This document shows positions 36,439-41,272 of a stretch of 41,991 nt of DNA, piece after piece. Below the pieces are notes generated by a model. It saw only the letters and a program-made list of their open reading frames with translations. It ran no database searches and was not told the DNA's origin. The DNA comes from Oligoflexales bacterium (GTDB lineage Bacteria; Bdellovibrionota_B; Oligoflexia; Oligoflexales; JAGOVF01). Positions within the stretch are counted from its first letter, which is position 1. Each line of letters opens with the position of its first letter. The position numbers and the translations under genes were made by a program. Location: contig JAGOVF010000015.1 of assembly GCA_018060885.1 (NCBI GenBank), positions 1-41,991 of the forward strand, given 5' to 3'.

Positions 36439-37317
36439 TTAGAAAAAATCAGCATTAGGCGTATAAACCCAACCACTTGTATCGAGATAGCCCACTGGCA
36501 TTTCACTCAATTGCTTTTGTACAAAAAACCAAGCCATACAAGCCGTCACAAAAGCAGAAAATACTGGCAATGAATGAGCTATCTCTGAAAATTGTTCTGA
36601 TTCTATCAAAGACCCGTTATCGGAAGATTTTATATTCAACTTCCGACAAAAAGCTAAACAAAGTTCCTCACGCACACTTTTTCCAACTTCAAACGATCGA
36701 TATTTTTCTATGACATCAGGTTCTGCCTCTAAAAAATGGCTTAACTTTTTTAAACTTTCAAGCACGCTTGTTTCTTTTAATGTGCAATCAATATTTAGAG
36801 CACGCAGCCTTTTTTGAAGCGTTTGACCCCTAATCACCAGTGGTGCCAAATTAGAACTAAAACTAGGTTCTTTTATACTTCCATGCTCATTAGAAGCCGA
36901 AAAGATGTCCCATAAACGATGACATTGGGGATTAACTGGCCTTTGGCGTTTTTTCTTTTTAAAAAACGGATTAACTTGGGCAAGCGCTAGCATGTATGCA
37001 ACTGTCGTATCTTCGCAAGCATAGACTCCTGGACAAACAGGTCTCTGACAACTTACGCAGGGTGGATATGATAATGGGGTATCGACAAATATACTGGCAA
37101 TGTTGCTTTCTGAAGCAATAATTTTAGCAATTCGGTCATCTGAGTAACTGCTTCCCAAACTGCCAATTTTTTCATATAATTTTTTAATTCTTAGGCTAGG
37201 AGTTCGTACTTGTTGTTCGAGGATAATGACCGCTGTTTTGAGCGAGTTAGATCCCGCTAAATGAATTCCTATGAACTTGGTTCTGTCTCGTTCTGTTTGA
37301 TTAAATTGTTTGTCCAT
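36439..37317 (-). CDS. DUF429-like protein with Cys cluster
   Basis: 292 residues. The opening KFIGIHLAGSNSLKTAVIILE and the FVDTPLSYPPC segment match the DUF429 pattern (predicted RNase H-like fold with conserved acidic residues); a later RLWDIF resembles the R-x-x-D of the family. Directly after VDTPLS lies Cys87-x2-Cys90-x4-Cys95-x5-Cys101, with Cys132 further on, suggesting a metal or iron-sulphur site. No catalytic activity is proved for DUF429. The gene is divergent from the outer-membrane candidate at 37384; they have only 66 bases between start codons. Confidence 0.75.
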   Translation of the reverse strand: MDKQFNQTERDRTKFIGIHLAGSNSLKTAVIILEQQVRTPSLRIKKLYEKIGSLGSSYSDDRIAKIIASESNIASIFVDTPLSYPPCVSCQRPVCPGVYACEDTTVAYMLALAQVNPFFKKKKRQRPVNPQCHRLWDIFSASNEHGSIKEPSFSSNLAPLVIRGQTLQKRLRALNIDCTLKETSVLESLKKLSHFLEAEPDVIEKYRSFEVGKSVREELCLAFCRKLNIKSSDNGSLIESEQFSEIAHSLPVFSAFVTACMAWFFVQKQLSEMPVGYLDTSGWVYTPNADFF

Positions 37318-37383
37318 GAGGCACTGCCCATTTTGCCAAATATTATTCTAAGAAATTCTTTTAGAACGAGATTCTTTTTTCGT

Positions 37384-39183
37384 ATGTCAAAGCAATCTTT
37401 CTTTATTCTAACATTTAATCTGCTTTTTATTTCAACTTTATTTTGGACAAAACATTCTTTCGCGAGACCTGCTAAACAAGGATTATCTAAAGCGCAAAAC
37501 ACGCAAATTCAAAACCACGCGCCACATGATACGAATTCTCAAATGGCACTTGCCCGGCAACACTTTGAAAAACAAGAATACGCAAAAAGCATTGGAGTAC
37601 TCAAGCGCATTCAAAACAAGCAGCCGCGGTATTGCCCTGCTCTAGAGCTTATGGCAGCAGCATATTTTCACATTGGGTTACCGATTCGTGCACTTTACTT
37701 CTTAAAACGCTGCGAAAAGACCAGCCTCACTCCTTCCTACAATGCATATTACCAGGGCATGAGTTTTTATTTTTTGGAAAAGCTCCCAACAGCAAAGGCG
37801 CTGCTAAGTAGAGCGTCTCAATATTCTGACTTGTATGCTTCGAATGCCTTATTTGAATTAGCAATCATCGAATATCACCAAAAAGAATTTAATCAAGCCG
37901 CTAACGGATTCCGAATGTACTTAGCTAAATACCCAAATGGACCTTATGCGCAAAAAGCCATGACCGGACTTAAAAGTATTCAGCGTAGAGTTTATTTAAG
38001 ACATCTTTTTGGAATTGCTTATCCAAATGCTGATATCGCGACGTTTAAATATAATCCACTTTCACTATTTGATTTTCAACACTTCTGGCTGTTAGGGATA
38101 GCGACAGGATACACTGAATCGCACGAAAAAGACCCGGTGAGTTCAAATGGAGGTGGCGTCCTTCTTAAAAATACTGCGGCACTCGACTATTTTCTCGAAA
38201 CCCAAGCTTCTTTCGGAATTGGACCTTTTACCAGCACAAGTAACGTAGTTTTTGCTGGCTATAATTACCGACAAAGATGGTTGACGACGCCCGATAGAGT
38301 ACAGCTTTACTTTGAAGACATCACAGACTTTGAATACTTTTTATACCGACCTGATCTCCTCGTCAGAACACATGAATTTTATCTAGATTATTCACGCGAG
38401 CTCTTTACAGATCTTTTTGTCGGAGCTTATACGAAAATTGGCTATACCAGAATGGGTAGCTCCTTTCTTACAACTCCTGAAGATACCGAAATTCAGAAGT
38501 CTATAACCATAGGTCAAAGTCAACTCTTAATGCCTTGGGTTCGATCTCCAATTAACGATTACATTGATGTTATGATTTATGCCTATTTGAATAAAAATTT
38601 AAATGAAGAGGCTCCAGAATTTTCTCATAAGACCTTCGAGTTTGGCGGAAATAGTCCATCTATAAGTTTTGGCGGCAGAGGAATTTTTAATTACCCTGCA
38701 ATATCTTTAAAACTTAATTTGGAAATATTTCGTTTCAACTACACTTATAATGATTACTGGCTAGATTCACGTAAAGAAGGGGTCTTAGTTGAAGCTGAAA
38801 ATGAGTTTCTTCCAAGCTGGCATTTAAAAGGTAGTTTAGGGATGTATGGCGACACCTATTCTGTGCAACAACTCAAAGCAGGCCCTTGTCAAAGCCAAGA
38901 AACACGCCGCAGTAATAGCGATCGCCCCACCCCATGCTGGCGTACAGACCAAGGATTTTTCTATTCTGCAGAACTATATTGGAATTATACAAATTTTACC
39001 CGTTATGCTATTTCTTACGAATTCTTAGAAAACAAAAATCCTAACCTCACACAATTTGACCAGAATATTCAAACTCTGACTTTTTCTGCTAATATCGCCT
39101 TTCCAGATGTTAATAAAGTCAGAACATATACCGATCAACTCAGAGTACATCCGCTATTCAATAAAAAAGAGGGTTTTGAGTGA
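37384..39183 (+). CDS. TPR-containing outer-membrane candidate
   Basis: 599 residues from the ATG at 37384, chosen because it begins a signal peptide (cleavage near HSFA). A longer frame from 37261 would run into the divergent gene. Residues about 50-200 contain helical repeats of TPR type (AYFHIGLPIRALYFLKRCEK and IEYHQKEFNQAANGFRMYL, each with the expected spacing). Residues 205-599 are rich in Tyr, Phe and Asp with beta-strand alternation, as in outer-membrane barrels. The function is unknown. Its stop overlaps the PilZ start (GTGA), so it is coupled to a cyclic-di-GMP-type protein. Confidence 0.8.
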   Translation: MSKQSFFILTFNLLFISTLFWTKHSFARPAKQGLSKAQNTQIQNHAPHDTNSQMALARQHFEKQEYAKSIGVLKRIQNKQPRYCPALELMAAAYFHIGLPIRALYFLKRCEKTSLTPSYNAYYQGMSFYFLEKLPTAKALLSRASQYSDLYASNALFELAIIEYHQKEFNQAANGFRMYLAKYPNGPYAQKAMTGLKSIQRRVYLRHLFGIAYPNADIATFKYNPLSLFDFQHFWLLGIATGYTESHEKDPVSSNGGGVLLKNTAALDYFLETQASFGIGPFTSTSNVVFAGYNYRQRWLTTPDRVQLYFEDITDFEYFLYRPDLLVRTHEFYLDYSRELFTDLFVGAYTKIGYTRMGSSFLTTPEDTEIQKSITIGQSQLLMPWVRSPINDYIDVMIYAYLNKNLNEEAPEFSHKTFEFGGNSPSISFGGRGIFNYPAISLKLNLEIFRFNYTYNDYWLDSRKEGVLVEAENEFLPSWHLKGSLGMYGDTYSVQQLKAGPCQSQETRRSNSDRPTPCWRTDQGFFYSAELYWNYTNFTRYAISYEFLENKNPNLTQFDQNIQTLTFSANIAFPDVNKVRTYTDQLRVHPLFNKKEGFE

Positions 39184-39824
39184 AAGAAGGCGACTACAGA
39201 AAAACTATCGACCTAGCCTACAAATACCGTTCTCCGGTGTTTTTAAACTGTGAAGGCATAGATATAACTTTTGAGTCGTGTATTCGAATGTACGACGGAA
39301 ATAGCATTATTCTCGAGAATAGTGTGCATCCCGATTACATTAGAAAGTTCACCCAGGCCAAACGATTTTCTGTCCAAATTAATATGCTGAGATTTGAAAG
39401 TGATGAAATTCACTCTAACGGTAAGGAAATAATATTCCCACTCAAATATGATGATAGTTTTGAGAATTCACGCTCCGCTGAACGCTACAGTTTTAGTAAA
39501 GAAGAACAAGTCTATTGCAAGTTACGCAACCCTTTTGATCAAGTGACGTTCATTAAGAAAAAGATTGTTGATCTTTCTAATACTGGACTTTGCCTCAAAA
39601 GCCAGTCCAGTACATCATTATTTCAACCTGGGGTTCAATTCAGTTATCTTACTGTTGATATAGACGGAGCAACTTTTTTGCAAACATCAGGAACTGTGAT
39701 TTATGTTCGAAAGATGATGAATAAACATGGGAAATTAGAAGAGCAAATAGGAATAAAATTCGATAAAGAAATTCACCAAATAGAAAAAATAAAACCCGCA
39801 CTTTCAAGTGGAAGAAATATCTGA
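39180..39824 (+). CDS. PilZ domain protein
   Basis: 214 residues from GTG at 39180 (overlaps the preceding TGA; AGAGGG upstream). The N-terminal 100 residues resemble a YcgR/PilZN-like region. The C-terminal part has PilZ features: an ERYSF segment near 100, IVDLSNTGLCLKS at 130-142 (the D/N-x-S-x-x-G motif), and the SGTVIYVRK and IGIKFDK strands. PilZ domains usually bind cyclic di-GMP; the RxxxR motif is partly kept (RSAER), so binding is likely but not certain. It sits between the outer-membrane candidate and a nucleotidase. Confidence 0.82.
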   Translation: MKEGDYRKTIDLAYKYRSPVFLNCEGIDITFESCIRMYDGNSIILENSVHPDYIRKFTQAKRFSVQINMLRFESDEIHSNGKEIIFPLKYDDSFENSRSAERYSFSKEEQVYCKLRNPFDQVTFIKKKIVDLSNTGLCLKSQSSTSLFQPGVQFSYLTVDIDGATFLQTSGTVIYVRKMMNKHGKLEEQIGIKFDKEIHQIEKIKPALSSGRNI

Positions 39825-41272
39825 AAAAAACTAACAAACCATTAAGCCCCTGGCAAAGAGTCTACGTCAATCGCAGCCTTAATATGGCTAAGATTAAATG
39901 GATAGGGTTTGATATGGATCATACTCTTGCACAATACAACCAAATTCGCTTTGAACGCCTCGCATTTAAGGCCGCCTTAGAAAAATTTATTGAAATTGGC
40001 TATCCTCCAGAATTAGCTAAACTTGAATACAATCCTTCTTTTTTAATTCGCGGTCTTTTGGTTGATGTCAAGCGTGGCAATTTATTAAAGGTTGACTGTC
40101 ATAAATACGTAAAAACTGCTTTCCATGGCCATAAAAAGCTTACTAAAGAACAACGCGATCAACTATATAATCAACAAAGCTTTAAAGCCGAAAGTTTTAA
40201 AACTGTCGATACGTTTTTCGCCCTGAGCGAAATGCAAATGTATGCAGAAATCATTGATTATATGAACAGTCATCCAGGGGTCATCAGAAAGAGCTTTGAA
40301 GAGGTTTATCTAGACGTCAAGCACTGTATTGACAAAAGCCATAGCGATGGTTCTATAAAACATTTAGTATTGATGCAACCGCAACTTTATATAGATAAAG
40401 ACAAACAACTCGCCGCAACATTAAAGAAACTAAGTGAAGCTGGCAAAAAAATTTTTTTGCTAACAAATTCACTTTGGGATTACACTGACGCAATTATGAA
40501 ACACTTGTTACCAAAAGAAAAGGGCATGACAAGTTGGCGTGACTATTTTGATCTAGTAATAGTTGGAGGCAACAAACCAAATTTTTTTAGCGGCCGGCAG
40601 CCCTTTTACAAGGTTTTAACCGAATCAGGAAGTCTGCGGGTGACACATGGCCAGCTCAATCCAGATGATGTTTACCATGGCGGTAATGCTCATAGCCTTG
40701 AAAAATTTTTGCGTGTCAAAGGTGATGAAATCGCTTACGTTGGCGATCACATCTATGGCGATATATTCCATTCCAAGGATAAATTCAATTGGCGAACCAT
40801 CCTTATCATCCGAGAATTAGAGCACGAACTCAAGAGTCTCAATGCTTTAAAAAAGAATTTAGCAGATATTCGTAAAATTTCATTAGAAAGAGAACAGTTA
40901 GAGGAAGAGCATCACCAGCTAGCCATGGCACATTTACAAAGCCAGAGCCGCAGCGCGCATAAAAAAAATGATAACCCATATAAAGTTCGCAGTCTGACTA
41001 TAAAACAGAATAAATTTCGCAAAGAACTGGAATATTTTGAATTAAAAATAGCTAGTTGCCATGAGAAAATAAAATCATTAATGGAAAAACGTTCCCAGAC
41101 GTTTCATCCACTTTGGGGAGAGCTATTGAGAACTGGAATGGAAAGAAGCCGCTTTGCTGATCAGATTACTGAATATGCCTGTTTATACACAAGTAAAGTA
41201 ACTAATTTGTTATTTTATAGTCCTTTCAAAAAATTTGAGTCTCATAAGGACAGGCTGCCCCACGAAATTTAA
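39821..41272 (+). CDS. HAD-type IMP/GMP-like purine 5'-nucleotidase
   Basis: 483 residues if started at a CTG at 39821, or 462 from the ATG at 39884. Similar to eukaryotic cytosolic IMP/GMP 5'-nucleotidase (NT5C2), a HAD-fold phosphatase. From the ATG numbering: DxDxT in FDMDHTLAQY with Asp10 and Asp12, FLLTNSLW for motif II, and YVGDHIYGD for the late acidic motif. The family-typical RVYVNRSLN lies in frame upstream of the ATG, so the true start is earlier: GGAAG stands six bases before CTG 39821, which overlaps the TGA of the PilZ gene. No ATG, GTG or TTG exists in frame between the upstream TAA at 39764 and 39884. Confidence 0.9.
   Translation: MKKTNKPLSPWQRVYVNRSLNMAKIKWIGFDMDHTLAQYNQIRFERLAFKAALEKFIEIGYPPELAKLEYNPSFLIRGLLVDVKRGNLLKVDCHKYVKTAFHGHKKLTKEQRDQLYNQQSFKAESFKTVDTFFALSEMQMYAEIIDYMNSHPGVIRKSFEEVYLDVKHCIDKSHSDGSIKHLVLMQPQLYIDKDKQLAATLKKLSEAGKKIFLLTNSLWDYTDAIMKHLLPKEKGMTSWRDYFDLVIVGGNKPNFFSGRQPFYKVLTESGSLRVTHGQLNPDDVYHGGNAHSLEKFLRVKGDEIAYVGDHIYGDIFHSKDKFNWRTILIIRELEHELKSLNALKKNLADIRKISLEREQLEEEHHQLAMAHLQSQSRSAHKKNDNPYKVRSLTIKQNKFRKELEYFELKIASCHEKIKSLMEKRSQTFHPLWGELLRTGMERSRFADQITEYACLYTSKVTNLLFYSPFKKFESHKDRLPHEI

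Follow-up and report, generated by a model that had tools for sequence, protein, structure and literature searches.

At the far end of the window, by which we mean the whole 41,991-nucleotide stretch analysed here (contig JAGOVF010000015.1 of the Oligoflexales assembly GCA_018060885.1), a PilZ-domain gene is followed on the same strand by a gene whose predicted product is an IMP/GMP-type 5'-nucleotidase. The nucleotidase frame is bounded upstream by an in-frame TAA at 39764-39766 and closes with a stop at 41270-41272. As the first-pass annotation had noted, and as the sequence confirms, there is no ATG, GTG or TTG in this frame from 39767 to 39883, the first ATG being 39884-39886, and the only NTG codon ahead of it is a CTG at 39821-39823. 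The two open frames overlap for 58 bases (39767-39824), and the TGA that ends the PilZ gene (39822-39824) shares two bases with the proposed CTG start, giving a 4-nt CTGA overlap at 39821-39824. The features of the locus are as follows.

39180..39824, plus strand: PilZ-domain gene (PF07238; RxxxR and DxSxxG motifs), with a TGA stop overlapping the CTG
39764..39766, plus strand: in-frame TAA bounding the nucleotidase frame, read from the sequence
39810..39814, plus strand: GGAAG, a weak Shine-Dalgarno-like site (-3.3 kcal/mol)
39821..39823, plus strand: CTG, the proposed nucleotidase start codon, sole NTG before ATG 39884 and at the position of the TTG in the same-family relative L002
39821..41272, plus strand: 5'-nucleotidase gene as read from the CTG, 483 residues and a stop (PF05761 and TIGR02244, scored on the frame from 39767; best solved relative 2bde)
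39824..39830, plus strand: run of seven A residues after the CTG, where a one-base error would put GTG 39808 in frame
39857..39883, plus strand: RVYVNRSLN, the N-terminal block ahead of the first ATG, its N, R, L and N conserved in 47 to 50 of 50 loci and with mostly third-position differences
39884..39886, plus strand: ATG, the first in the frame and probably coding for an internal methionine, without a Shine-Dalgarno and present as ATG in 38 of 49 relatives

Further upstream, the longest frames at 36439-37317 (minus strand) and 37261-39183 (plus strand) overlap head to head by 57 bases (37261-37317), and the start of the plus-strand gene may lie further in.

The assignment of the downstream gene is clear by the curated cut-offs for HAD-IG 5'-nucleotidases, both of which are exceeded by the frame read from 39767 (PF05761, 494.9 bits against a cut-off of 28.5; TIGR02244, 363.3 bits against 237.15). 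Both matches begin at frame residue 32, which lies within the block ahead of ATG 39884. The DxDxT motif is the catalytic motif of these enzymes and is present here as DMDHT within GFDMDHTLA. The best solved relative is the IMP-GMP specific 5'-nucleotidase of Legionella (2bde, E 4.8e-84), whose alignment starts at residue 4 of the chain, directly with the block (HKVFVNRIINM). Entries for the human cytosolic purine 5'-nucleotidase rank next, and their alignments start at residue 10 of the CTG-initiated protein, ahead of the block. Set against these HAD-IG (cN-II-like) enzymes, to which the family match extends over the whole protein, the protein is ordinary and its start codon is the only oddity. 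A start at ATG 39884 would lose a block that the Legionella enzyme also has.

To place the start codon we relied on relatives of the gene. Searching 56 genomes, all within the same class, gave the gene in 51 including the window's own, and the 50 matched relatives were reduced to 49 for comparison by leaving out one (G054) whose match lacks the N-terminus. A phylum-wide search at a completeness of at least 80 returned 52 genomes, again all inside the class, the sole addition (G056) being a match without the N-terminus, and one distant locus from a contig scan (L051) was left out of the counts. The genome of the window is a single draft assembly and comparison at the level of the family rests on one same-family genome, that of L002. 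An NRSLN-type block is found in frame in all 49 relatives, and with the window included its residues are conserved as N in 49, R in 50, L in 48 and N in 47 of 50 loci, which bears out the earlier claim of a conserved block ahead of the only ATG. Every one of the 49 also has an ATG, GTG or TTG in frame after its upstream stop and ahead of the block NR, leaving the window as the only locus of the 50 with no standard start codon there.

The position of these starts points to the CTG. In 47 of the 49 relatives a standard start lies 11-21 codons before the block. The other two were considered as second CTG-type cases and rejected, since L050 (G005) has a TTG at 35 codons, after GGAGAGG, and L036 (G030) an ATG at 26 as well as a TTG at 36. 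CTG 39821 lies 16 codons ahead of the block NR, and the nearest relative and only family-mate, L002 (56% identity), has a TTG at exactly that distance. A start-type codon occupies the 16-codon position in 12 of the 49 (seven TTG, of which one, in L009, is followed by an ATG one codon on, and five ATG), and there is none in the other 37. Because N-terminal tails vary in length across the relatives, we place weight mainly on L002; the same variation means that the 16-codon distance is not obligatory, which counts against the CTG. As CTG makes up 1.4% of window positions on both strands, its occurrence precisely at the start position of the family-mate would be a coincidence of about 1 in 70, as against about 1 in 7 for a CTG anywhere 11-21 codons ahead of the block. 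This positional match is what argues most strongly for a CTG start. The first-pass annotation had named homologues of close relatives starting at 39884 as one observation that would overturn its proposal; none of the 49 relatives needs a start there, and at the position of ATG 39884 itself 38 have ATG and 11 do not, so that this codon probably encodes an internal methionine rather than marking a conserved start.

The pattern of substitution tells where coding begins. Between the window and the 49 relatives, the nine codons of the block differ at rates of 0.30, 0.27 and 0.63 by codon position (107 codons identical, 212 synonymous and 122 non-synonymous); the corresponding rates are 0.21, 0.20 and 0.61 over the 16 codons downstream of ATG 39884 and 0.71, 0.74 and 0.71 upstream of the CTG (39779-39820). 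Between these, 39845-39856 gives 0.59, 0.60 and 0.71, and 39821-39844 gives 0.68, 0.59 and 0.70, with little or no codon-type signal. Among the relatives the seven codons that follow the CTG show no conservation, the uppermost conserved single residue being that at 39842, which is L or I in 45 of the 50 loci. Over the stretch from the CTG to the first standard start codon, what is conserved is thus this residue and the block at 39857-39883. The start should accordingly lie no further downstream than 39842, and up to that point CTG 39821 is the sole NTG available, even though the little conservation over 39821-39844 leaves the first residues themselves without support of this kind. Other near-cognate starts fare no better, with ATT, ATC and ATA all absent in frame from 39767 to 39883 and the AAG codons at 39806 and 39812 judged less likely.

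These observations bear directly on translation from ATG 39884, by which the upstream block would not be made in this organism. No standard start codon precedes ATG 39884 in the frame, but we consider a start there very unlikely, as it drops a block that all 49 relatives and the Legionella enzyme possess, a block that moreover retains codon-type conservation in the window, and the ATG has no Shine-Dalgarno (+1.1 kcal/mol). The earlier proposal of a probable CTG start is thus supported by comparison of sequences, both through the TTG of the same-family relative and through the lack of a Shine-Dalgarno at the first ATG.

The ribosome-binding site is a weak part of the picture. It had been proposed that the CTG is served by a GGAAG six bases upstream, and the spacing is as described (39810-39814, with a six-base gap to 39821), but the site is a poor one, scoring -3.3 kcal/mol against the anti-Shine-Dalgarno, a value equalled or bettered by 18.6% of 3000 random window positions. 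Where relatives have TTG at this position (seven cases), the corresponding values run from -4.8 to -8.1 kcal/mol, with L002 at -6.9. A start codon this weak would be expected to come with a strong site, so this counts somewhat against the CTG; it also suggests that coupling to translation of PilZ probably helps initiation. Around the overlap no notable RNA fold was found, prediction being no better than for shuffled sequences (z 0.14).

A relaxed initiator tRNA was considered and is unsupported. Swapping one of the three G-C pairs of the initiator arm is described as altering discrimination against CUG (PMC11497404). A single gene with the exact arm, GGG-CTCATAA-CCC, and all three G-C pairs was found, and ARAGORN, run on 5 of 35 tRNA matches (6 loci, two of which are the same gene), calls it tRNA-Met with anticodon CAT. 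A longer initiator-tRNA pattern gave no match. The gene found looks ordinary, with no sign of a special tolerance of CUG.

The upstream gene is a weaker member of its family by score, its match to PF07238 (22.7 bits) being barely above the cut-off of 22.5. It has the RxxxR and DxSxxG motifs; RxxxR and (D/N)xSxxG are the motifs by which PilZ domains bind c-di-GMP. Counting the window, 36 of the 50 loci have a PilZ gene with RxxxR and (D/N)xSxxG no further than 600 bases upstream of the nucleotidase block. Together the genes would make up a conserved pairing in which a probable c-di-GMP receptor precedes a predicted GMP-removing enzyme, and a literature search for PilZ and nucleotidase with combined terms (including c-di-GMP, operon and Bdellovibrio) found no paper on such a pair.

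The end of the PilZ gene appears to have moved. Its tail after the core motif GIKF is 20 residues long in the window, compared with 1-12 in 36 relatives (the PilZ end was located in 37 of the 50 loci, the other 13 falling outside this count), and the PilZ stop of L002 has its first base 31 bases upstream of the TTG. The distance from GIKF to the start codon is nearly the same in the two, at 59 bases here and 58 in L002, so that a single T-to-C change in a TTG start like that of L002 would give the CTG, which is the most likely origin. PilZ, in turn, may have lost its stop and been read on to the next TGA, placing its end on the nucleotidase start.

Overlaps of this type are usual in the genome. 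The first-pass annotation had likened the CTGA to the GTGA overlaps of the window, and the geometry is indeed shared with those at 39180 (plus), 14397 (minus) and 9844 (minus); the likeness is partly automatic, however, and carries little weight by itself, since wherever a TGA ends the upstream gene the -1 frame necessarily reads NTG at that point. A crude frame-calling census (frames of at least 150 codons) of the window and 20 other stretches of the genome, 262,911 bases together, gave 11 NTGA overlaps, namely seven ATGA, three GTGA and one CTGA. An overlap of 4 or 1 nt is described as the arrangement found most often in gene pairs, and as a requirement for coupling by termination and reinitiation (PMC10666635); the present overlap has the same -4 nt NTGA geometry but a CTG start codon, which the abstract of that paper does not mention. 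Two further papers (PMC9955659 and PMC4825925) deal with coupling and, in their available text, with no natural CUG start.

Our preferred explanation, to which as a whole we would give a probability of about 0.8, is that the nucleotidase is translated from CTG 39821 with the ordinary initiator tRNA, coupled to PilZ, and that this start derives from an ancestral TTG. The 483-residue protein so made would keep the conserved block. Ribosomes finishing PilZ at the overlapping TGA would move back one base, within CTGA, and restart; given how usual NTGA overlaps are in the genome and that coupled pairs have this geometry, we infer that most initiation at the CTG probably comes from such ribosomes, and that expression would be low.

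The alternative that survives best, unlikely as we hold it to be, is an error of sequence or assembly, or a mixture of strains, such that 39821 is really T, A or G, or the A-run at 39824-39830 is one base shorter and translation starts at GTG 39808. The assembly is a fragmented draft (266 contigs, contamination 3.26) and the nearest relative has TTG at the same position, yet a base error would demand one specific wrong base, and errors in consensus sequence are rare. With six A residues in place of seven, GTG 39808 would join the nucleotidase frame 20 codons ahead of the block; this codon has no Shine-Dalgarno (+1.6 kcal/mol).

Entry into the frame by recoding, whether through a -1 shift ahead of the PilZ TGA that yields a fusion or, from GTG 39808, through a +1 shift or slippage of the transcript at the run of A residues, is less probable still and can largely be set aside. 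The overlap of the frames and the run of seven A would offer an opportunity for it, and a heptamer A AAA AAC is present in the frame of GTG 39808, but a -1 slip there enters the PilZ frame and not that of the nucleotidase, no slippery heptamer was found by eye in the PilZ frame before the TGA, the region lacks a notable fold and the relatives have separate starts. Decay of the start codon in a gene scarcely expressed and heading for loss, which the rarest of the NTG starts and its weak Shine-Dalgarno might suggest, is scarcely credible for a full-length frame with no internal stops and 56% identity to its nearest relative over 479 residues.

Initiation at CTG is rare in bacteria, as had been pointed out from the outset. 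CTG is reported as the annotated start of 20 of nearly 85,000 bacterial genes, or 0.024% (PMC11983097, with the same percentage in PMC11497404), a rate at which a genome of this size, assuming some 3,500 genes, would hold about one. CUG is reported to give 0.86% of AUG expression in Escherichia coli (PMC11497404), a point against the CTG start, and 1 of 2,468 ancestral UUG starts to have switched to CUG (PMC5622118). One supported case is a CTG inside a Salmonella rhs gene, where fusion to a reporter gave a small but significant signal with the orphan copy, unlike with the main one (PMC7043789). The closest known parallel is the rep gene of RepFIB plasmids, where a CTG start, misannotated at a GTG 14 codons downstream, was identified through analysis of the protein N-terminus, with mutation as confirmation; that start has a good ribosome-binding site, in contrast to the weak site and stop-start overlap of the present, comparatively placed one (PMC11983097). 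Bacterial CTG starts are therefore already known, and the locus adds another example and no new mechanism.

Common gene finders take only ATG, GTG and TTG as starts. So limited, they would begin this gene 21 residues late and lose its conserved block, and some real CTG starts may be hidden by gene finders behind the 0.024% of annotations, whereas here the comparative data place the CTG at the start position of relatives. Nature here provides a case in which to ask whether a very weak start codon can be sustained by an overlap of stop and start. A more far-reaching reading, which we put forward tentatively and think doubtful, is that the CTG and the CTGA make synthesis of the nucleotidase almost wholly dependent on translation of PilZ, the probable c-di-GMP receptor, by having a very weak start fed only by ribosomes that finish PilZ; if true, the amount of a GMP-removing enzyme would be linked by this locus, in a low fixed ratio, to that of a c-di-GMP effector.
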